Below are positions 25,552 through 61,690 of a stretch of DNA of 64,000 nucleotides, piece by piece (positions within the stretch are counted from its first letter, which is position 1; the number at the start of each line of letters is the position of its first letter). Location of the stretch: positions 1-64,000 of the forward strand of contig JADGJA010000008.1 in assembly GCA_027596035.1 (NCBI GenBank), given 5' to 3'. Below the pieces are notes generated by a model that was not told where the DNA came from, did not search any database, and worked only from the letters and a program-made list of their open reading frames with translations. This DNA is from Thoreauomyces humboldtii (lineage: Eukaryota; Chytridiomycota; Chytridiomycetes; Spizellomycetales; Powellomycetaceae). The position numbers and the translations under genes were made by a program.

Positions 25552-27334
<1,783 letters not shown>

Positions 27335-31074: not shown

Positions 31075-32319
31075 TTAAAATTTGTATACATCAGACTCGG
31101 CATACCCGAGCTTCTTCAGGATCCCGCCAACCTGTCCTTGGGAGAAGTCTTTCGCCTTAGTCCCAGAGATGGCTGCGACCATGGGGTTGGGTCCACACAC
31201 AAAGACCTTGCCAGTTCCAGGAGCGGGAGCGACCTCCTTGACGAGCTTCTCGCTGATGTAACCCGTCTCTCCCTTCCAACCCTGCGGGGGCTTCTCGAGA
31301 ACGTATCGAACCTCGAACTGACCGGGGTTCTTCTTCGCGACAGCGTCAAAGTAGTCGCGGAGGATGATGTCCTCTTCGGCGATGTTCGCGAAGACGAGGG
31401 TCATCTTGGTCTTGTCCTCGGGGTTGGACAGGATGCGCTGGATGAGTTGCACCATGGGGGTGATGCCTGTTCCTCCTGCGAGCATGGTGATCTTTTGGTA
31501 CTCGTTGGCCTTGTGTGCGTGCTTGGCGATGGGTCCCTTGACGTCGAGCGTGTCTCCTGGCTTCAGCGACCAGATGTGCGTGGACATGGGTCCGTCTGGA
31601 CAACGGCAACGGGGAGGTCAGAACTGCGGCTTTGCTGTATGCGTGCACCAAAACACTTACTAGGGTACTTCTTGATGATCATGTCGAAAGTGCCAGTGTA
31701 GCCATCGGCGGGATCTTCGACTGGTGTGTAAGGACGGATGACCACGTTAGGCTTTCCATCAGCCTTGACCCCGTCCACCATCTTTGTCACAACAGCGGAA
31801 GCGGTAGGCAGACCGAGCTCCGTGGTTCCTTGGGGGAGCGCAAATCGGAAGCGCTTCGTGTTGTGGTTCATATCCTCAATCTTTGGAGTTCACGTTAGAA
31901 ACTTTCACGAAAATGACATAGCCCAAGTGTCAGGCTGACCTCTTTCAGCGCAAACGGGATGAAGGTCTACGAAAATGAGTAGGAGTTAGTTCTTTCGTTC
32001 GGTCAAACAAATAATCAACGGTTGTGCGCGGTACCTTGCCATCCAGTGCAGGAACAGGGTTAGCTTTCGCATTGGCGTCCAGCTTTGCCTTTATTTTCTG
32101 GGTACTATCGGCTTGCTGCTGGGTGTACAGATAGTAGGCGCCCGCCGTGACAACTCCAGGTACGAGGACCATCTTGACGAAGGTGCTCAAACCGCTGCTA
32201 CCCTGAGGGGTCGGGCCAGCACCTGAGGCGCCCATTCCCGCGCCTGAGGTGGTGGACATGCGCATGCCCCCGAAGATGGGACTCGCCGAGAGCGTTCGAG
32301 CTACAGTACGGTAGAGCAT
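31075..32319 (-). CDS. MCR1: NADH-cytochrome b5 reductase, mitochondrial type
   Basis: Exons 32319-32035, 31966-31940, 31880-31661 and 31595-31075 give 350 residues. The second exon is only 27 nt (TFIPFALKE). The N-terminal presequence (MLYRTVARTLSASPIFGGM) is followed by a membrane segment (FVKMVLVPGVVTAGAYYLY), as in Mcr1. The FAD-binding motif is VIRPYTPVEDP. The second flavin block is GPMSTHIWSLKPGD, and the NADH site is LAGGTGITPMVQLIQ with VFVCGPNPMVAAISG. It moves electrons from NADH to cytochrome b5 or related acceptors at the mitochondrial outer membrane or intermembrane space. No defects were seen. Confidence 0.93.
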
Positions 32320-32755: not shown

Positions 32756-34298
32756 TTATATCGAAGAGTCTCCACCATCATTGATAAACACAAGGTCGGT
32801 CGCTGTCGCGTCCGAGTCGTTGAATTGCCGGACGACGTCGGCCCGTCCGGCCCGAGACATCTCCACCTGCGGATTGCCAGATGGTCCGTCTGATCCTTTC
32901 TCTGCGTCTTCGCTTGACGATTGTGGAGGCAGTCCAAGCTGTTCCCGCGTCGCGGCTCGCCATCGCTTGTCCAGAAGCATATTGTAGATGAACGTACACG
33001 TCGGGCTGGAAGCACGAAGACAAGGTTAGACGATTTCGGGAGTGAGGGGTCGCGCGATGGATCGGGGTAGGGAGTCTTACTTGTTCAGAACAAGAACGAT
33101 TCCGACGCAATCGACAGCGAAGGGGACTCTGCGCCCGGCAAACATCGAGTAGATGATAATGACGCAGTACACACTCCAGTTGGCCAGGAAAGTGAGCACG
33201 AGCACAAGGGACTTTTCGGCCACGAGCTGGCAGTACTTTGGCTTGTGCCAGTTCACGAGGTCGACGGTTCCATCTGAAGTCGAAAAGGCTCCGCTGCAAG
33301 ACCACTCCAAGGCGTGCGCTCGGAGTCGAAGGACGAGCTGGATGTAGCTCCACGTGAACAGAGCAAGGGTAATCGCAAGCGTCAGAATGCAAGTCAGCGT
33401 ACTAAAGTACGGGTACGTCCAGTCGAGCGTGCAGTAACTATGTGCGGCGAAAAGACCGTTTAAGTATGCGTCCACTGTCCAAAAAGCGCATCAATGTCGG
33501 CAAGCAACTTACAGGCCCGACGGCTGAAGTACATAGTGCATATCCCTGGGATCGCTCCACCAGGTCGATGACGTTGAGAAGATGGCCCATGAAATGTTGA
33601 TTGTCAACAGCAAGGCCAGCCATCGCTTTTTCAAGGTTTTTTGCCGGACGATCGAAGTGTAACGTTCCAGCGCCATCGTCGCAAGGCCGGCCACACTCAC
33701 ATGCTGACAGAGACATGTCAATTGCGTAATTTGTTACTCGTGCTGCAGTAGGCCATAAACATACGTTCATAAGCACAGTAAGAGTCCCATCAATCTCGCA
33801 TCCTGTTCGACCCCATGGGTATCCTATCGTCATGAGAAGACAATCCATGAGTCTCCTTCTTCAGCTTAAACAGCAGTCATGATGTCCCTACCTCGGCTAG
33901 AAAGCGTTCCTACCGTAAATACCAATCGACACAGGCAGAGAATGAAATCAGATCCAGAAAGTACAACGAGAAGAACGTTCTATTCGTGGGAAATTATGAA
34001 AGACATCTCGTCAGCCATGGAGATCATCCCTCACAGGTCATTTCCTGGGTTCCAGTCAAAACTCACTTGTGCGGTGCGCAGAGCAGAGTTTTTATAGAAC
34101 AAATAGTACATGAAAGCATTGCCACAGATGGTGATGCTGCATAGAACGCATACGAGCACTCCCGTTGCGAAGGCTAAACTCGGTGTGGTATGAGTATGAC
34201 GCACTTTTTCAGTCGTAATAATGATAGATGCGGAGGGTACCTCCATCGGTTAAAGGCTCAATCGCGTCGTAAGCATCATACACTGACGAAGTGCTCAT
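32756..34298 (-). CDS. Rhodopsin-like (class A) seven-helix G-protein-coupled receptor
   Basis: Seven exons (34298-34241, 34173-34067, 33979-33933, 33852-33765, 33703-33513, 33437-33081, 33005-32756) give 365 residues. TM1 has the GN motif (SITICGNAFMYYLF). TM2 has an Asp (LLVVLSGSDFILCL), at the usual 2.50 place. A cysteine precedes TM3 (GRTGCEIDG) and pairs plausibly with YCTLDW in loop 2. TM3 ends in the ERY triad (AGLATMALERYTSIV). TM4 has a central Trp (LTINISWAIFS). TM6 has FLANWSVYC and TM7 ends NNPTCTFIYNML, then a basic helix 8. The tail is acidic and Ser-rich. The third intron (phase 2, acceptor AAGGAG) is the least certain. It should act at the plasma membrane; the ligand and G protein are unknown. 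Confidence 0.72.
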
Positions 34299-37990: not shown

Positions 37991-38248
37991 GGTAAGGAAG
38001 GGGAAGGTTAGGCTTTGGGAAGATGGACGTTTTCATGAGAGAGAGAGAGTGGGTGACGGTGAAATGGATAATGCACAGCCTCTCCCTTGGACAGCCCCAA
38101 TGCGCGTCATCGCTGCCCCCTCCCCCCCATCAGCAGCACCAAAAACCTCGCGGCCATTTTCCGCTCAAAACGTCAACAAGGCACGATCGTCAGCAGATTG
38201 ACCACCATCGAGTGCTAGAGACGATCGTCTGCGTTGGTCATTCCACCA

Positions 38249-39910
38249 ATGTCGTCGACTTTACCATCACCCTCCGCGTCGGGAGCAGCTCACGTCGGGA
38301 GGCTGGGTTATGCCTGTCTGAATACGGTACTTCGAGCTCAGATGCCCAGCGTTTTCTCCTCGCGAACCTGTCGTCTCGCCACTATCCAGGCCCTCGGTCC
38401 CGCTCACGCTCATGCCCTCGCCCTGCGGAACGTCAAGGACCTCATCCCCATGTTGGAGTGGAATCACAGGCACAACATCAGGTTCATGCGGCTGTCGAGC
38501 GAGATGCTACCTCTGGCCAGCCATCCCGAAGTCGGATACAACGTGAAAGATGTCGAGGGATTGGTCGACGTCCTGAAGGAGGTCGGAGATCTAGCGAGAG
38601 CGAACGGTACGCGGTTGACGATGCATCCCGGACAGTTCGTGCAGCTGGCCAGTCCGCGAGAGGTTGTCTTCGAGGCGGCCCTGCGGGACCTGGAGATTCA
38701 CTGCGACATCCTGGACGCCATCGGATTGGGAAAGGATTCGATCATGATCATCCACATGGGCGGCGTCTACGGTGACAAACCGAGCACCCTCGAGCGTTTC
38801 CACACTCGATGGGCTCTCGTTCCACCACGGATCCAAGCTCGCATCGTCCTTGAGAACGATGACATGTGCTATAGCGTCTCGGACATACTACCGACGTGCG
38901 AGGCTCTCCAGATCCCGCTCGTGCTGGACTGGCACCATGCCTCCATCATCACGGACGAACACCCACCGGAGTTCTACCTCCCACGGATACTGAAGATATG
39001 GCGAGATCGAGGCATCACGCCAAAGCAGCACGTGTCGGACCCCCAAGTGGGAGCCGTCACCCCGTTCGAGAGACGCAAGCACGCCAAGCGCGTTGCGGCC
39101 CTACCGACAGGATGGACCCCGGACATCGATCTGATGGTCGAGGCAAAGGACAAGGAGCAGGCGGTGTTGCACCTCTATCGGGTCCATGGGATGTTTGAGG
39201 TGGACGAGGAATATCCTGTCAGTGCGGCCAGGCAGGAAGAGCTGGCCAAGCTGGGACGGCGAGCCGAGAAGAAGCCGAAGGTTGAGAAGCTTGAAGTCGA
39301 TGAGGACGGCGTTGCGTTGCCAAAGAAATTACGGAAAAGGCGAGCGGCGAAAGTTAAGAAGGAGGAGGAGGAAGACGACGGAGAAGAACTGGCCGACGAG
39401 GCCGACTTGGCGCTCACTCCTCCAACGCCGGCAAAGAAACGAGCTCCGCGCAAGAAAGCAATAAAGTCAGAACTGCAAGCTGAACCCCTCTCCGAGGACG
39501 TAGCACTCTCCGAAGCTGCGACCACTGGGAAGCGGAAACGAGCAGCAGCCAAGAAAACTAAAGTCAAGGAAGAGATAGCAGGACCCGATCAGCAAGCACC
39601 CTCAGCGAAACGAAAGCGTGCAGCTGTTAAAGTGGAACAGGTTGATGAGGGTTCGTTGGACACCTTGACAACGGACGCATTGTCTGTCCTCTCAACTGCT
39701 AACAAATCTCGTCCACGCGGACGTGGTCGTTGTCCTACTGGTCCTCTTCCAGTCGTACTTCCGCCATCGCCCAACCTTTCGCAAGATGAACCGTTTTCCG
39801 AAGAGCAAATCAAGCAGTCAATGATGCGAGAAATTCTATTGGAGGATATGGAGATCACTGCAGCGGATGCCAGAGCTCAGCGGGCCAGGAGGAGATCGAG
39901 GCCGGACTAA
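38249..39910 (+). CDS. UVE1: UV-damage endonuclease (UVDE) with a long basic tail
   Basis: A single exon encodes 553 residues. The UVDE TIM-barrel begins RLGYACLNTVLR and shows the metal-site blocks RFMRLSSEMLPLASHPEVGY, TMHPGQFVQLASP, MIIHMGGVYGDK, VLENDDMCYSVSDIL and LDWHHASI. It nicks DNA 5' of UV photoproducts without a glycosylase step, giving repair independent of nucleotide excision. After the barrel (about residue 310) a long Lys/Glu-rich tail has basic clusters (KKLRKRRAAKVKK), an RPRGRGR AT-hook-like piece, and several psi-K-x-E sites (IKSE, VKEE, VKVE, VKKE). An upstream exon could extend the N terminus; ATG 38249 is the first in frame. Confidence 0.92.
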   Translation: MSSTLPSPSASGAAHVGRLGYACLNTVLRAQMPSVFSSRTCRLATIQALGPAHAHALALRNVKDLIPMLEWNHRHNIRFMRLSSEMLPLASHPEVGYNVKDVEGLVDVLKEVGDLARANGTRLTMHPGQFVQLASPREVVFEAALRDLEIHCDILDAIGLGKDSIMIIHMGGVYGDKPSTLERFHTRWALVPPRIQARIVLENDDMCYSVSDILPTCEALQIPLVLDWHHASIITDEHPPEFYLPRILKIWRDRGITPKQHVSDPQVGAVTPFERRKHAKRVAALPTGWTPDIDLMVEAKDKEQAVLHLYRVHGMFEVDEEYPVSAARQEELAKLGRRAEKKPKVEKLEVDEDGVALPKKLRKRRAAKVKKEEEEDDGEELADEADLALTPPTPAKKRAPRKKAIKSELQAEPLSEDVALSEAATTGKRKRAAAKKTKVKEEIAGPDQQAPSAKRKRAAVKVEQVDEGSLDTLTTDALSVLSTANKSRPRGRGRCPTGPLPVVLPPSPNLSQDEPFSEEQIKQSMMREILLEDMEITAADARAQRARRRSRPD

Positions 39911-46672: not shown

Positions 46673-47161
46673 TGCGAGACGAAGGGGCCGCTGGCGCCGT
46701 TGTGATATGAGCCTGTATGAGGTTGTGCAGAGACGGTCGACGGACGAGTTTGCTGGATCCCGTTCGTGATGTGTCGCTCCGTGAACATGCCTTCCTTGTC
46801 CGCCTCGACTGGACGCCTGTTCGACAGCGCGCAGCTCCCCAAGGAAAGCCAGGAAAGCTGATGACGTCCAGTCGGGCAAGCGTCATCTCTCGCGCATGGC
46901 AAGTGTGCGGTTCCTCGATAAAGCCGAAACCACCGTCGCACTCCCGTCGTACCGTACTGTATTCCGGTTACAAATCTCGTCCTCCTCGCCATCATATATC
47001 GATATCAACCCCTCGCTGCCGCCGCCGCCGCCTTACCTCCCTTGGTACTTTGCATCTTACTGTACATCCTATCCGCAACACGTCAAAACACCAGCATACA
47101 CGCATCCATCTCCGCCAATTCACAGACCCACTCATCTCCCAATACATCACATTCCATCGCA
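46673..47161. promoter_or_regulatory. Divergent promoter between MPO1-like gene and ZWF1
   Basis: 489 bp between the start codons, with a CCGCCGCCGCCG run near 47020 and C/A-rich sequence directly before the ZWF1 start. No supported gene. Confidence 0.4.
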
Positions 47162-48884
47162 ATGTCCGACTTTGACCACACCACGATCGTCGTTTTCGGC
47201 GCATCGGGCGACCTCGCCAAGAAGATGACATACCCCGCCATCTACTCGCTCACCAACCAACCCTCCACGCCGCTCGAGACTTCCTCCCTCCACGTCATCG
47301 GCACGGCTCGCTCAAAGTACTCCAAATCAGAGTTCGCAGACAAGATGCGTCCAGGGCTGGAGGCAAAGGACAAGAAGAACGTCGACAAGTTCCTCGAAAG
47401 ATGCTCCTACGTCGCCCTAAAGGGCTACGACGACACAGAGAGCTTTGGACAGCTGGACAAGGCCATCGCCGAGAGCGAGCCAAAGGGGAAAAGGTCCCTC
47501 CGTCTGTTCTACATCGCTCTCCCTCCGAGCGCCTTCGAGGACGTGGCGAGGAACGTCCGGGCAAAGGCCTGGAAGTCGGACGACGGAGTCACGAGCAGAA
47601 TCATCGTGGAGAAGCCGTACGGAAAGGACACGGAAAGCGCAAAGAAGCTCTCCAAGGAACTCGAGAAGAGCTACTCGGAGGAGGAGGTAGGAGCTCTCTG
47701 TCGTATCGTTTTTCTCCGAGCCTTCGGAATGTCTGACCCAGATCTCGGAATCGTCTCAGCTTTACCGAATCGATCACTACCTCGGAAAAGAGTCCGTCAA
47801 ATGCGTGCTTCCCCTTCGCTTCGGGAGCAACCCCTCCCTCTCGGCCACTTGGTCCCGGGAGCACATCTCTCACGTGACCGTCGACTTCAAGGAAGAGTTC
47901 GGCGCGGAGGGACGAGGCGGATACTTTGACGAGTTCGGAATGATCCGAGACGTCATGCAGAACCACCTCATGCAATGGATCGTGCTCCTTGGCATGGAAC
48001 AACCAAAGAGCCTCAGCGCTGAAGACATCCACACTGCCAAGGTGCGCCGGCTGAACATAAAGTTTGTGAACACCGCTTGGTTCATCGCGCAGATATTGAT
48101 GCGTCCATCCTTTGCAGCTCAACTTTATCAAAGAGTGCCGACCTATCAAGCCTGAGGACGTTCTCGTCGCCCAATACACCGAGTCGAAGAAGGATCCCAA
48201 GGAGAAGAAGGCATACGTGGACGACGAGACTGTCAAGGACGACTCGAAGGCCGCGACCTACGCAACTGCCATCCTTTACGTCGATAACCCGAGGTGGAAG
48301 GACGTGCCATTCATCATCCGCGCCGGAAAGGGTGAGTGTGGGGAACTGACTTGGAGATCCGCTCACAAAACTGACATTCCAACTTTCCAGCCCTCGACGA
48401 GACCCGCGCCGAGTTCACATTGAACTACAAAACCCAAGAAAAGTCCCTGTTCGCCACGCCCTCTGCTCCATCCACGTTCACCGTCCGAGACCACCCGGAA
48501 CGGTCGCACGTTCTCACGCTCATCACGAAGCGAGCCGGGTCGGGGTTCAAGATCACTCCCGCTCCGCTCGCTCTCCAGTTCTCGGCACCCGAGACCAGCG
48601 ACGACTACGTTCCCACGGCGTACGAGTCCCTGATCGAGGACGCGGTCCGCGGCGACCACACCTGGTTCCTGCCCCGGGAGGAGGCCGAGGCCGGCTGGAG
48701 GGTGTGGGACGAGGCCATCGCTGGCACCAAGGATCGTCAACCTGTCAAGTACGCGTACGGTGCCAGTGGCGTTGAGCAGGAGGAAAAGTTCCTCGAGCAG
48801 AGGGTTGACAAGAAGGCAGTCTGGGGCACGAAGGCTGACAAGGTCGTTGACGTCGCTGAGAGGTTCGGTGGGCTCAAGATTTAG
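47162..48884 (+). CDS. ZWF1: Glucose-6-phosphate 1-dehydrogenase
   Basis: Exons 47162-47686, 47760-48041, 48118-48331 and 48391-48884 give 504 residues. The NADP dinucleotide site is VVFGASGDLAKKMTYPAIY. The substrate site is the invariant RIDHYLGKE, formed across the first junction (LYRIDHYLGKESVKCVL). Other blocks are RIIVEKPYGKD, GRGGYFDEFGMIRDVMQNHL and VPFIIRAGKALDETRAEF. It makes NADPH in the first step of the pentose phosphate pathway. The segment after the active site (CVLPLRFGSNPSLSATWSRE) departs from the usual LLVLRFAN..WN wording, but the length and spacing are normal. Confidence 0.95.
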
Positions 48885-49396: not shown

Positions 49397-51684
49397 ATGC
49401 GCTTCCTATCCCACCTTGCCTTCGCGGCTTCTGCGCTGTTGGCATTCCCCTGCAATGTCCACGCCCAGCAGCACTACACCTGCGACTCGCCTTTATACTG
49501 TCCTGGGAAGATCCTTGATACCGTCCAGCGAGCCGCCCTCTACAACGACTCGAAGACCTTTGTGGACAAACCGTCCACGCAGCCGCTGGAAGCCGTGGTG
49601 GCAGCTTTCAACGCCCTCCCTGTCAACGTCAGCAACGCGCAGCTCCAGGCTTGGGTCGATGCCAACTTTGGTCCCGAAGGGAGCGAGATCGAAGCCATCA
49701 CGCCGAGAGATTGGACATCGACGCCGGCGTTCCTGTCCAGCATCTCTGACACGGTCCTGCGAGACTTTGCGTCCACGGTGCACGGTTACTGGCAGATCCT
49801 GACCCGCGATTTCAAGAAGAACACGACTCAGTGCGCAGGTTGCGTGAGCAGTCTGCTTCAGGCCAACCACACGTATGGCTGAAAGGCTGCGTCATCGGGA
49901 TCCTTGTGAGGCCTGCTTTGCTGATCCTTGCGAATGCCTCAGGTTCGTGGTTCCTGGAGGGCGATTCAGAGAGCTTTACTACTGGGACTCGTACTTTATC
50001 CTGTAAGCGCAGCGATCCAAAAGTCAGACTAAAAGTCAGACCATTGACCTGATGGAATAAATCAGACTTGGTCTCGCCAAGAGCGAGATGTACTCCACTA
50101 TGGCCGATGTGATTCAGAACTTCATGGTAAGGACCTTCCCGACCATCGGGTGCATCGACATTGGATGCTTCGACATTGCGCGTGACTGACGGATCTCCTC
50201 CAGGACTTTGTGCAGAAATATGGATTCATGCGTAGGTTGCTCCCGCTTTTGGCCATAAACCATGATCTGCAAGTCTGACATCTTCGACCATGCAGCAAAC
50301 GGATCGCGATTATACTACTTGGACCGCTCGCAACCGCCTATGCTGACGCAGATGGTTAGTCTGTATCTGAACACCACTGGAAACACCACCATGCTATCGG
50401 AATGGCTTCCGATTCTCGACACGGAATACTCGTTTTGGCAGCAAAACCGCACGATCGCAGTGACGAAGGCGGGCACCACGTTCAACCTGTCCCACTACGA
50501 CGTCACAAACTCTGCTCCGCGACCCGAGTCGTATCTCGAAGACGTCGTGACTGTCGAAGGAGCGAACCTCACGACCGCGGGCCAAACCAACCTCTATCAC
50601 AATCTAGCCACTGGCGCCGAGACCGGATGGGACTTTTCATCTCGATGGATCGAGAAACCAGTGAACGACTCGTCTTCTGCGGATCAAGAGACCAACCTCC
50701 GTCAACTCGTTACTTCCTCAATCGTTCCAGTCGACCTGAACTCGATCATGTTCGCCAACGAGCTTACCCTGCAATCCTTGCACATGAAATCGGGCGACGC
50801 GGCCAAAGCCCAGTCGTACGGTCGAGCTGCCGACACCCGACGTCTGGCCGTCTGGAACGTCCTGTACGATGACTCCCTCGGCGAGTTCAGGGATTGGGAC
50901 ATGGTCGCTTCGGCTCCCAACGAGTGGACGTCCGCGAGCTTCTGGCCGGTCTGGGCCGGCATCGCGGATTCCGACCCTAGGAACTCGACCGCGACCCAGG
51001 CCGATCGATGTACCACCATGGCGAGCTCGTTCAAGGTCCTCGACGATCTGCTCAAGTTTCCCGGTGGAATCCCCACCACGCTTGAGCGAACCGGATTGCA
51101 GTGGGATGGTCCCAACAGGTGAGTGACGGGGGAAACTCGTCCATTTGCACAAATGAGTTTTGTCCATCGATCAATGAGCTAAAAAACTCCTCGCTTTGGA
51201 CAGCTGGCCGCCGCAGACCTGGATCGCCATCAACGCACTCACTCGCACGGCTTCTCAATGTCCTTCCATCCCGAACCTCCAAGCCCACGCGAGCAGCATC
51301 ACCACGACCTTCGTGCAACAAGCCTTCTGCTCCTGGCGGAACTCTGGCGGATCCCTACCTGGCGTACCCGCCATCGCATCCGCACCAGCGGACGGTGGGA
51401 TAATGTTCGAAAAGTTCAGCAGCGACTCCGTGGGCGTACCGGGAGGAGGCGGAGAGTACACCGTGCAGGCTGGTTTCGGCTGGACCAACGGAGTCACACT
51501 CGCCATCCTTGCTTCGGCGTTTGGAGAGAACCTCGTCGTGCCCGACTGTAACGGAACCACGACGTCCGCTTCCACGAACTCAACCGGAACGGGAGCCGCG
51601 GCATCTTCGGCTGCGGGACGCCGGGTTGCTCCGCTTTGGACTGTCATGGTGGCTTGTCTGTACCCGCTTTTGGCTTTCCTTTAG
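49397..51684 (+). CDS. GH37 trehalase, secreted and probably GPI-anchored
   Basis: Six exons (49397-49872, 49943-50002, 50066-50126, 50204-50231, 50296-51118, 51204-51684) give 642 residues. It has a signal peptide ([20 protein letters not shown]). The GH37 signature [15 protein letters not shown] is formed across a splice, and the second signature QWDGPNSWPPQTW likewise. DSKTFVDKP and [10 protein letters not shown] are further trehalase blocks. Several N-glycosylation sites are visible. The C terminus has a Ser/Thr/Gly-rich stretch and a final hydrophobic run ([16 protein letters not shown]), as in a GPI attachment signal. It would split external trehalose to glucose at the cell surface. The fourth exon is only 28 nt. 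Confidence 0.94.
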
Positions 51685-53307: not shown

Positions 53308-54702
53308 TCAAAGGTGGTTCAAGAGGCCCTCCATAATAGGCTGGACCTGCTTCCTGCTCGATCTAATGTTCTTCTGCAGGTACAGACGCGCCTGATGCTT
53401 GTCGCCTTCAGCTCCCTCTGGACCGGCGAGGCCCTCACACCACTTCTCGGCCACGATCTTCAGATCCAGCAGGGGGGACGCCTCCAGACCCTTGAGGAGA
53501 CGCGCTCTAGCATCCGCGTCCGTCGCCAACTGGCGATACACGGTAACAAAAAGTTCTCTCTCGAAGCCCTTCTCAGGACTTGTTGCCGAGTTTTCGTGGT
53601 TAAAGGCTGTCATGACCACGTGACAGTCGAGATTGCGGGAGGTCGCGAAGGATTCACATGCTCGTCTCAGATGCTTGCTTCCTTGCGTTTGAGCATCTTT
53701 CCCATCACTTCGTGTTTTTGGCGACGATGGTGGAGATCCTTCCCGGGCGGCCCATCCATCGGCGCCTGAAATGTGCCACGACACGCTGCTGATGCCAAGC
53801 TTGTGGGAGCCGACCAACCACTCCTTGTAATCCTTCCGGAGGAGGTCGTACGATGAGAGATTCGAGATGCTGACTTTGGCGTGGTAGACGCCCTGGTAGA
53901 GATTCGTCAGGAACGCATCGTCACCCACCGCGGTGCTAGCGACGGAATGTTCTCCAGCTCGTGCGAAAGGGAGCAGATAATCGACCGCTCTCCGATCTGC
54001 TTTTGTGACCCGCCCGTATTCCTCCTTGAGGTTGACCGTATCGATGAGGATGGCGCAGATCATGCAAAGCGCTAGTCCAGATTCCGGCTGGACATCATCA
54101 GCGGCCGCCAATTTCCACTGCTCCGCAACGAGCGTCGCGGCCGATCCAACAGGCTCGATAACCCGGGGATCCGCTTCCGGATGCAAGCCCTCGTCAACGT
54201 GGTGGTCTAGGATCCCAACGACCGAGGTTTCGAATCGGCGAAGAGAGGGGGCCAGCTGATTGTGGTCCACCAGAACGAGTCGAAGGCGACTCGCAGAGTG
54301 AAGAGCATCGAGATCGATCTCGTCGAGAAAAGTGAGGTGTGGTGTGATGTCGGTGTCAGGGTACCCTGTGTTAAGGGCGTATGGACATTCCGTTCGTAGC
54401 GCAAAGTCCGCTCGAGGGATGCCAACAACGGGAAGGTACTCAGTAACCGGCCCAGCGGCCCTCCTCTCTTGACGAGTAGATTCTAGAAATGCATACGACA
54501 CTGCGGAGACAACAGAATCAAGGTCTAAGAAGAAAGGCTTCTTAGTAAGATCTGCTTTACGCCGTTTCTGAACTGCGTGGTCTATACCTGCAGCTTCGTT
54601 ACCGATGACGACGGTAACAGGTAATCCTGAAGTTGATGCTGTGGATACCTTCCTCGTCGTGGCTAGAAACCTCGCCAGTCTGGACGTGCAACGTGCAGTC
54701 AT
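53308..54702 (-). CDS. PPX1: Exopolyphosphatase (DHH family)
   Basis: Exons 54702-54588 and 54524-53308 give 443 residues. Splicing restores GNEAADLDSVVSAVSYAF, the DHH-family motif I. Motif III is the signature GILDHHVDEG. The DHHA2 domain follows (DLLRKDYKEWLVGSHKLGIS and CHVVMTAFNH). It removes terminal phosphates from inorganic polyphosphate. An N-terminal basic stretch (RCTSRLARFLATTRKVSTA) suggests a mitochondrial form. The intron (54525-54587, 63 nt) is a multiple of three without a stop, so intron retention would insert 21 residues in motif I and should inactivate the enzyme. Confidence 0.93.
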   Translation of the reverse strand: MTARCTSRLARFLATTRKVSTASTSGLPVTVVIGNEAAGIDHAVQKRRKADLTKKPFFLDLDSVVSAVSYAFLESTRQERRAAGPVTEYLPVVGIPRADFALRTECPYALNTGYPDTDITPHLTFLDEIDLDALHSASRLRLVLVDHNQLAPSLRRFETSVVGILDHHVDEGLHPEADPRVIEPVGSAATLVAEQWKLAAADDVQPESGLALCMICAILIDTVNLKEEYGRVTKADRRAVDYLLPFARAGEHSVASTAVGDDAFLTNLYQGVYHAKVSISNLSSYDLLRKDYKEWLVGSHKLGISSVSWHISGADGWAAREGSPPSSPKTRSDGKDAQTQGSKHLRRACESFATSRNLDCHVVMTAFNHENSATSPEKGFERELFVTVYRQLATDADARARLLKGLEASPLLDLKIVAEKWCEGLAGPEGAEGDKHQARLYLQKNIRSSRKQVQPIMEGLLNHL

Positions 54703-54955
54703 TGCGGAGACTGTGGGGGTGCGAATCAGTGCAGAATGCGGAAACGCTCAAAGAGTTCTCGTCCCCACAACCCTGACTAGGGCTGTCTATCTGGCATGGT
54801 TGATTCGAAAATGTACGAAGATAAAAAAAAAAGAAGACGATGTATCAGCCTTTCCCCATATGTAGTCTTGCTCCCCATGCCTCCCGCACGCAAGGTGCCC
54901 GTTAGTGCTGTTCTTGATGATGATGTAATTTGTATTCCAGATGAATCAGAAGAGG

Positions 54956-58983: not shown

Positions 58984-61690
58984 ATGGCCTCTCAACAGTC
59001 GTACTATCAACAGCGGGGAGGAGGAGGTGGTGGTGGGGGTGGGGGTGATAGGCCCGGTGGACTGGGTGGGTTTCAACGACGCTTTGGAGGAGCCCCCGGT
59101 GCCGGATCGCCGTACGGAGGCCAGGACAGACGAGAATATGCAGAAGGCAAACGTGTTCGCAAAGCAATACAACGCCGAACGGTCGATTTCAATGCCTTTG
59201 TTATCAGGCACCTCGAGGTGAGCTCAAAACCTCCATACTGAGGATATGGCATATGGCTAAAGAAGGAGCTTGTTCTTCGTTAGGCTCGTCCATCACAAAG
59301 GAGCTGGAAGCACCACACCGCGATGCAGCCAGATCCAAACTTTATTATTGACGTAAGTGGAGCCTCGTCGCAAGACGTGTATGGATCGGCGTTTGAGCTG
59401 GCGCTCCGGGCGACGGGAGAGGGATTGTGTTCTGATTTCGACCAAAATATATACCCATTTACTCTATCATCGTCATCATTCCGCCGCTATTCGAGGGAGG
59501 CTGGTCTGGCCCTCTGTGTTGTTTAGTCGTGCACGAAGTCCTAACTTCATGGGCTCGGGCTCTTTCACTCCATAAGGGTTTACCTCCGTTCTGCTACCCG
59601 AACAATCCTTCAACTTCTGTAACGACAAAATACATTCACACATCAACAAACAAGATCCGATGTCCCATCAACGCTGTTCGGGTAAATTCCAGATTTCCTG
59701 CTTTACTCTTCTCTCCAACTGCTAAATTGACGACTGTCTCGTAGTGGACGCCTGACGGTCGCCGCCTTATCACTGGAGCTTCCAGTGGCGAGTTCACCTT
59801 ATGGAATGGGTTGACCTTCAACTTCGAGACCATCCTTCAGGTGCGCCCTGGACACGGTTCGTGCTTTCTTGGGACGTGCTGACTCGCGAATCGATTCTCA
59901 CTAGGCTCACGATAAAGCAGTGCGGACAATGGTTTGGTCCCATAATGACACTTGGCTGCTGACGGGTGATGACAGCGGAGTCATCAAGTACTGGCAGTCC
60001 AATATGAACAACTTGAAGGCGGTCGTAGCACACAAGGAAACGGTTCGAGATCTTACATTCTCACCTACGGATAACAAATTTGCGAGCTGCTCCGATGATG
60101 GAACCATCAAGATCTGGTCCTTTGCGGACGGTGTCGAAGAACGCACGCTAACAGGTAAGACTCTATCGGTGAACTTGCGCTTACAAGGCATCAATCGTCT
60201 GACTTTTTCCATCAGGTCACGGCTGGGACGTCAAATGCATCGACTGGCATCCTAGTAAAGGTCTGCTGGCGTCGGGATCAAAAGACAACCTTGTTAAGCT
60301 TTGGGACCCAAAAACGGGAAAAGCGTTGTCAACACTGTAAGGGAACATTGACTTAGGGGACGAGGTTATCAAATCTCACGGATGGCTCTTTAGGCATGGA
60401 CACAAAAATACTATTCTGGGCATTGAGTGGAACAAGAACGGCAACTGGCTTGTGACCGCATCCCGAGATCAGCTACTCCGAGTATACGATATTCGCACAA
60501 TGCGGGAATTGCAACCATTCAGAGGTCATAAGAAAGACGTGCAATGTACGGTCCAGTCAGGAAACGAACGTTACTCGTGGTTTTCTTTGTACTTACCATT
60601 TCTGTTCCAGCTGTTGCTTGGCATCCCTACCACGAAACAGAATTTGTTAGCGGAGGTTCCGACGGAAGCATGATGTTTTGGAACGTCGGGTATGTTCAGA
60701 TGGGGACGCTACTAAGTCACCTGACTCCTTAATTGCTGCATTTTATCATTCAGAACGGAACACTCAGTTGGGGGAATGGAAGGAGCACATGAATCCTCTA
60801 TTTTTGCATTGGACTGGCATCCGATGGGCCACATCTTGGTCTCTGGCTCGAACGACCACACCACCCGATTCTGGACGCGGAACCGCCCGGGAGATGCAAT
60901 GTCGGATCGCTTTGCATTCACCCGACAGTATCCCGACGACATGGGGGGCGGCGGCGGGGGCCGTTCATACAACAACAACTACAATCGTCACGAACAGGGC
61001 AATAATAACCGCTACGAGAACTTCGATCGACACGAAGAGGAGGAAGAAGTTGATACAACACCTGCGTTCCCAATCGAGGATTCCGGAGGGGCACTCCCTG
61101 GGCTGGGAGGCGATCGAATCTCATCACTAGATGCATGGGACGCCCGAGATGGAAGGGATGATGGCCGAGGGCGGAGAGACCGACCGCACGGCCGGGATCC
61201 AATGGCCGCTCATCAGCCTCCGCAACGAGGTCCAAGATCACAGCAGTTCGCACCCGTGAGGCAGCAGCAACCGTATGGGCAGCAGGCGCGGCAACAAAGC
61301 GCTGCCGGTCGAGGTCAATTTGCTCCACCAGGCAACTCCCGCAATGATCGGAACGACCGCAATGACCAAAATAGAGATCGCTTCGATCGGGATCGGGATC
61401 GAGCTCCATCGACTCCTCAGAATCAGCAACAGCAGCGGTGGCCGGAAGGGGGCTCCAACGTATCAAACTATCAGCATCAACCGCAGCGCGCCCATCCTCA
61501 TCAGCAACAGGAACGACCACCGAACTGGCCTCAACAAGTCCCAATACCACCACAGCAACAGCAACAGCAAAGCCAACCTCCTGATGAGCAGGCACAACGC
61601 GTGCTCTCTCAGATTGCCGCTCAGGGGATCCGTCTCAATTCCAATCTAATGAACGCCTTTGGGAACCAAGGCGCTCCTAGACCACAATAG
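58984..61690 (+). CDS. PFS2: Cleavage and polyadenylation factor subunit Pfs2 (WDR33)
   Basis: Eight exons (58984-59217, 59284-59352, 59745-59840, 59905-60154, 60216-60336, 60394-60545, 60611-60689, 60754-61690) give 645 residues. A ten-Gly N terminus is followed by the conserved [18 protein letters not shown] seven-blade WD propeller follows: [60 protein letters not shown] and [20 protein letters not shown]. The long tail is Gln/Arg/Asp-rich. Pfs2/WDR33 reads the poly(A) signal and organises the 3' cleavage complex. The second intron (59353-59744, 392 nt) is several times longer than any other in the gene. Confidence 0.94.

Follow-up and report, generated by a model that had tools for sequence, protein, structure and literature searches.

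The window analysed here comprised 64,000 bp of the genome of Thoreauomyces humboldtii (contig JADGJA010000008.1, positions 1–64,000). On its minus strand, between 34298 bp and 32756 bp, it carried a gene whose product was supported as a class A (rhodopsin family, 7tm_1) G protein-coupled receptor (GPCR) by Pfam, by sequence matches in the PDB and by comparing the fold modelled for an ortholog. Two versions of the splicing were rebuilt, and in both of them seven exons joined into a single open frame. The six introns were 61–87 bases each. The strand, the start at 34298 bp, the stop at 32756 bp and the seven exons were as stated in the preliminary description of this DNA, which had been made from the sequence alone.

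Exon 1 (34241 bp–34298 bp), with the start codon (34298–34296), encoded the N-terminus and had an open frame and a GT/AG boundary. Exon 2 (34067 bp–34173 bp) encoded transmembrane helix (TM) 1, including GNAF (34123–34112), up to the start of TM2, and exon 3 (33892 bp–33979 bp) encoded TM2 with D2.50 in the motif SDF (33952–33944). Extracellular loop (ECL) 1 and the start of TM3, where GCEID (33803–33789) contained Cys3.25, were encoded by exon 4 (33765 bp–33823 bp). Exon 5 (33513 bp–33703 bp) comprised the end of TM3 with ERY (33667–33659), TM4 with W4.50 in SWAI (33592–33581) and the start of ECL2; exon 6 (33081 bp–33437 bp) comprised YCTLDW of ECL2 (33436–33419), TM5, TM6 with W6.48 in NWSV (33181–33170) and the first part of TM7. 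The end of TM7, helix 8 with DKRWR (32971–32957), the C-terminal tail and a TAA stop codon were encoded by exon 7 (32756 bp–33005 bp).

The two splice versions differed in the third intron. Placing it at 33932–33853, as was done in the preliminary description, reproduced the 365 amino acid protein described there, with an odd donor (GTGTCG) and a GAG acceptor. An intron of 68 bases at 33891–33824 (GTAGGG...TAG), for which exon 3 runs beyond its previously given end at 33933, yielded 369 amino acids. The latter is favoured on the sequence, and the former is probably wrong, because the 7tm_1 score rose from 48.9 bits to 56.7 bits, because all six acceptors were then TAG or CAG, and because the TM2–ECL1 stretch of the 369 amino acid version, RLVFTVGTLSSRGYPWGRTGCEIDG, aligned without gaps with RLVFTGSAVSKRAYQWGKLGCEIDG of Geranomyces variabilis P0002 (16 of 25 residues identical).

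Comparison of the 369 amino acid product with Pfam revealed a match to 7tm_1 (E 3.2e-15) well above the curated cut-off of 30.5 bits. Apart from it, just 7TM_GPCR_Srsx was listed at E values up to 10, below its own cut-off. P0002 and a second Geranomyces protein, P0003, matched 7tm_1 with E 1.2e-18 and 1.0e-17 respectively. A search of the PDB with the 365 amino acid version gave matches to 288 distinct sequences at E values up to 10. Each of the best 60 was a class A receptor or a fusion of one, with squid rhodopsin as the top match (E 6.1e-12). When a five-row profile was used, squid rhodopsin (5.3e-14) and the mu-opioid receptor (6.0e-14) were tied, so no single animal subfamily was picked out and the preference for opsins was weak. 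The model of the Geranomyces ortholog was predicted to have seven helices in a class A fold, and the first 26 rows of a Foldseek comparison with it were all opsins. Class membership, as originally proposed from the order of the motifs, was therefore borne out by the profile search and, for the ortholog, by the comparison with class A structures.

Residue positions were taken from a MAFFT alignment with Drosophila dopamine receptor 1 (P0008) and P0009, a further class A protein. This confirmed the N1.50, D2.50, C3.25, ECL2 cysteine, ERY and W4.50 that had been read in the window protein. C3.25, E-R3.50-Y, W4.50, the ECL2 cysteine and W6.48 were also kept in P0002 and P0003. The cysteines of GCEID and YCTLDW would form a putative disulfide. 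Helix 8 (LLDKRWR) and the segment before TM6 (YCQLVAEKS) were identical in all three proteins. At 7.43 the window protein had L, P0002 and P0003 both had F, P0005 had V and P0006 had N, the last two being the paralogs described below; all five of these fungal proteins had ERY. The window protein contained nine lysines, of which only K300 was near TM7; it belongs to DKRWR, where helix 8 starts. An Arg at approximately 2.57 (R73 of the 369 amino acid version) was common to the window protein, P0002, P0003, P0005, P0006 and a receptor piece on contig C324 (see below), and an Asp at 3.28 (D96) to the window protein, P0002 and P0003. As both positions are presumably close to the class A ligand pocket, these residues hint at a charged ligand.

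The gene lay in the middle of a contig of 89,069 bases. Ten neighbouring frames were scanned against Pfam and no further receptor was found among them; three of the ten had no match at all. The other seven encoded a Cys/Met pyridoxal-phosphate enzyme (26627–27331, plus strand), an NAD-binding oxidoreductase (31078–31617, minus strand) that we read as cytochrome b5 reductase-like, UvdE (38219–39907, plus strand), G6PD (46922–47926, plus strand), trehalase (50259–51119, plus strand), a DHHA2 protein (53311–54747, minus strand) and a WD40 protein (60725–61687, plus strand). The protein deposited for the receptor gene, HKX48_008593 (P0001; 211 amino acids, 32756 bp–33541 bp, minus strand), was 100% identical to the 369 amino acid product as an exact suffix of it. 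It began within ECL2, and the public annotation therefore lacks TM1–TM4. Searched by itself against Pfam, P0001 matched nothing up to E 10. As the deposited model is cut to 211 amino acids, Pfam-based surveys of proteomes would probably miss this receptor.

Protein searches returned nine distinct proteins overall, with scoring limited in each search to the 7,997 or 7,998 candidates that had the most words in common. The window protein, P0002, P0003 and the partial P0004 of G. michiganensis formed an ortholog group, and P0005 (T. humboldtii HKX48_000344) and P0006 (G. variabilis HDU87_008485) formed a paralog group. Both paralogs come from the same genera and, like the window protein, had ERY, YC-x-I/L-DW in ECL2 and W6.48. 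They kept N1.50 and D2.50 and, unlike the window protein, had P6.50, (D/N)PxxF and a stronger 7tm_1 score (95.5 bits for P0005 and 94.1 bits for P0006). The top PDB match of P0005 was dopamine receptor D1 (E 1.8e-11).

Further pieces of the paralog group were found in the T. humboldtii genome (G000). A second gene for a class A receptor was represented by its 5′ part on the minus strand of C324 (G000:C324:26-611; loci L011, L013, L015 and L017), where the contig end cuts it off. Its three rows of alignment had 74–78% identity to P0005, and the joined piece of 119 amino acids matched 7tm_1 with E 1.9e-12. On the plus strand of C358 (G000:C358:4522-5308; L014, L016, L018 and L019), exons from the 3′ part of a class A receptor gene similar to P0005 had 47–90% identity in four rows. 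Since no match to TM1–TM4 of P0005 was listed there, this gene may be partial, degraded or more divergent toward its 5′ end. P0005 itself sits on a contig of 7,110 bases, and exons of G000 matched it with just 33–90% identity; hence there are either several paralogs, or the contig of P0005 is absent from G000. A weak class A-like frame on C215 (G000:C215:23588-24016, plus strand; L020 and L022) was not counted: it had LCRERR in place of ERY, matched P0005 with E 0.00709 and P0006 with E 4.9e-4, and had no 7tm_1 match in Pfam. A 7tm_1 match in C237 (E 0.617) appeared to be due to chance when its translation was read.

The origin of the gene and the class of its product were weighed against other explanations. 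Class A receptors are chiefly animal, which would fit contamination by animal DNA or a recent transfer from an animal. This is highly improbable, as the gene lies mid-contig with ordinary neighbours (UvdE, trehalase and G6PD among them), has six introns of 61–87 bases and has its closest relatives in Geranomyces of the same family, Powellomycetaceae, while named animal proteins were matched in the protein search only at E 7.6e-4 and 2.1e-3. Squid rhodopsin as the top PDB match and the opsins heading the Foldseek rows would be expected of a type 2 opsin, a retinal-binding light receptor as proposed for a Spizellomyces punctatus protein; so would the Asp of CEIDG at 3.28, which we take to be the site of the Glu113 counterion in bovine rhodopsin. 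The five-row profile tie with the mu-opioid receptor argues against this, and none of the five fungal sequences had a lysine at 7.43, which makes a retinal opsin very unlikely; the retinal lysine was rated most critical by Ahrendt et al., in the excerpt of that paper used here (PMC5410147). Membership of another fungal seven-helix class (cAMP-receptor-like, Git3/Gpr1, Ste2/Ste3 or microbial opsin) has a precedent, as Krishnan et al. moved eight sequences with borderline 7tm_1 matches, of which six were fungal, to the cAMP-receptor family (PMC3251606, also cited from excerpts, as are all papers below). The window protein scored well above the 7tm_1 cut-off and had ERY, not the NxY reported for the reassigned set (PMC3251606). 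Among their listed matches up to E 10, the window protein, P0002 and P0003 had none to these Pfam families, and the window protein had none to the Dicty_CAR profile, within the limit that HMMER filters drop most weak matches (those above approximately 0.1). We consider such a membership hardly credible.

A functional, divergent chytrid class A GPCR, which would act at the cell surface as a receptor for a small non-retinal ligand and activate a G protein, is the reading that we regard as probable. Several observations weigh against it. P5.50, P6.50, N7.49, P7.50 and Y7.53 were absent from the window protein, P0002 and P0003. The missing prolines of TM5 and TM6 had been recognised correctly at the outset; residue 6.50 was V, M and L across the three, without the CWxP proline. 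The NPxxY-like motif proposed for TM7 was not upheld, because its 'NP' aligned at 7.45–7.46 (NN in Geranomyces) rather than at 7.49–7.50. TFIYN occupied positions 7.49–7.53 of the window protein, against IVIYT and IVVYT in the two Geranomyces proteins; shifting TM7 by one residue would place the next Tyr at 7.53 and still give no NPxxY. Residue 1.50 was T in both full-length Geranomyces proteins and residue 2.50 was S and T. With all of these losses, normal switching is not assured. NPxxY and P6.50 of CWxP are typical of class A and not universal. The fold model was that of the Geranomyces ortholog rather than the window protein, and the alignment behind it took in two animal receptors (P0007 and P0008) as well as P0009; its five models had a predicted local distance difference test (pLDDT) score of 44.6 to 72.9, and a prediction from four close relatives alone (best pLDDT 40.3) was discarded. 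When the genome was searched with 7tm_1 one exon at a time, the window gene itself was missed, so this search is unfit for counting class A genes in this genome. Lastly, the cyclase domain, with twelve matches on eight contigs of the same genome, also matched 5 of 14 prokaryotic control genomes and is therefore not specific to G-protein pathways.

The main doubt about this reading comes from the lost class A switches, with which an uncoupled or atypically switched receptor is conceivable. A protein that kept the class A fold and lost G-protein coupling (a decoy, scaffold or similar) would explain why NPxxY, P6.50 and P5.50 are missing from every one of the three full-length proteins and D2.50 and N1.50 from two of them; this is unlikely, though less so than the explanations above, as ERY, W6.48, LLDKRWR and YCQLVAEKS are identical in all three. 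Only slightly less doubtful is the proposal that the Thoreauomyces/Geranomyces subfamily, with its CWxP proline, NPxxY and, in part, its sodium-site Asp dismantled, activates G proteins by a switch that is non-standard relative to animal class A, beside a paralog group with the standard switch in the same genera.

Under the preferred reading of a functional GPCR, the receptor would, from knowledge of the family, reside in the plasma membrane, bind a small diffusible non-retinal ligand within the helical bundle and activate a heterotrimeric G protein via the ERY end of TM3. The signal would then pass into a cyclase pathway, perhaps with a role in the zoospore. Direct support extends to a gene structure that is intact, membership of the family, the fold predicted for the ortholog, the missing retinal lysine and the G-alpha, RGS and cyclase family matches in the genome. 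G-alpha had 20 matches on six contigs, 13 of them above the cut-off (one of the 14 control genomes matched, below the cut-off), and RGS had four matches above the cut-off (none of the 14 control genomes). The window receptor is most likely an orphan, probably chemosensory, of the Thoreauomyces/Geranomyces subfamily with altered activation switches.

Among the hosts of published sequences, Spizellomyces belongs to the Spizellomycetales, and C. fioriniae is an ascomycete. T. humboldtii is itself placed, as is Geranomyces variabilis, in Chytridiomycota, Spizellomycetales, Powellomycetaceae (NCBI taxonomy). The host had initially been taken for a member of Dikarya, and the importance attached to the gene, as a poorly described sensory system, depended on this; that premise was wrong, and class A receptors have been reported from chytrids since 2012 (PMC3251606). 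Krishnan et al. described 12 Rhodopsin-family sequences (eight from Spizellomyces punctatus, one from Batrachochytrium dendrobatidis and three from Allomyces macrogynus) and, in the excerpt, none from Dikarya (PMC3251606). A Spizellomyces protein carrying the retinal lysine was modelled by Ahrendt et al. in 2017 (PMC5410147). A 2022 paper, 'A light-sensing system in the common ancestor of the fungi', reported the type II rhodopsin-like GPCR from various zoosporic fungi and inferred that Dikarya had lost it (PMC9616733). An eLife paper of 2025 reported Rhodopsin-like GPCRs from amoebozoans as well as fungi (PMC12716839), and a 2025 survey of 1357 fungal species designated 984 Rhodopsin sequences as class 15 (PMC12842992). 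Class XV was listed as uncharacterized in a 2026 review whose example protein is from C. fioriniae (PMC13308352), so some 7tm_1 matches are claimed even in Dikarya.

The window protein resembled the receptors of Krishnan et al. and class 15/XV in its 7tm_1 match, D/ERY, two extracellular cysteines and zoosporic host (PMC3251606, PMC12842992, PMC13308352). Compared by description only, its subfamily differed from the former in lacking NP at 7.49–7.50, a shared motif in PMC3251606, and in its variable D2.50. It also resembled the type 2 opsin-like GPCR of Spizellomyces punctatus, which was set against squid rhodopsin in that study, in being class A and from a spizellomycetalean chytrid, and differed from it in having no retinal lysine, a residue that the Spizellomyces protein is reported to have (PMC5410147). 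The proteins returned from the 7,997 or 7,998 candidates scored did not include the Spizellomyces sequences of Krishnan et al., which has no bearing on kinship. Of the papers listed for Thoreauomyces, none was on GPCRs by its title, and none was listed for Geranomyces together with GPCR; absence of this gene from print is not claimed on these grounds. Since Rhodopsin-family GPCRs of chytrids and blastoclads are already published, the window gene is a divergent orphan addition to the chytrid class A receptors in print since 2012, rather than a novel sensory system of mushrooms or yeasts.

Class A is the largest animal receptor family (PMC3251606), and its fungal members bear on the origin of the family before the animal/fungal split. 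The window gene adds to its subfamily a member that had been hidden by the deposited gene model. That model starts in ECL2 and has no Pfam match, which points to a possible undercount of chytrid class A receptors in surveys of predicted proteomes.
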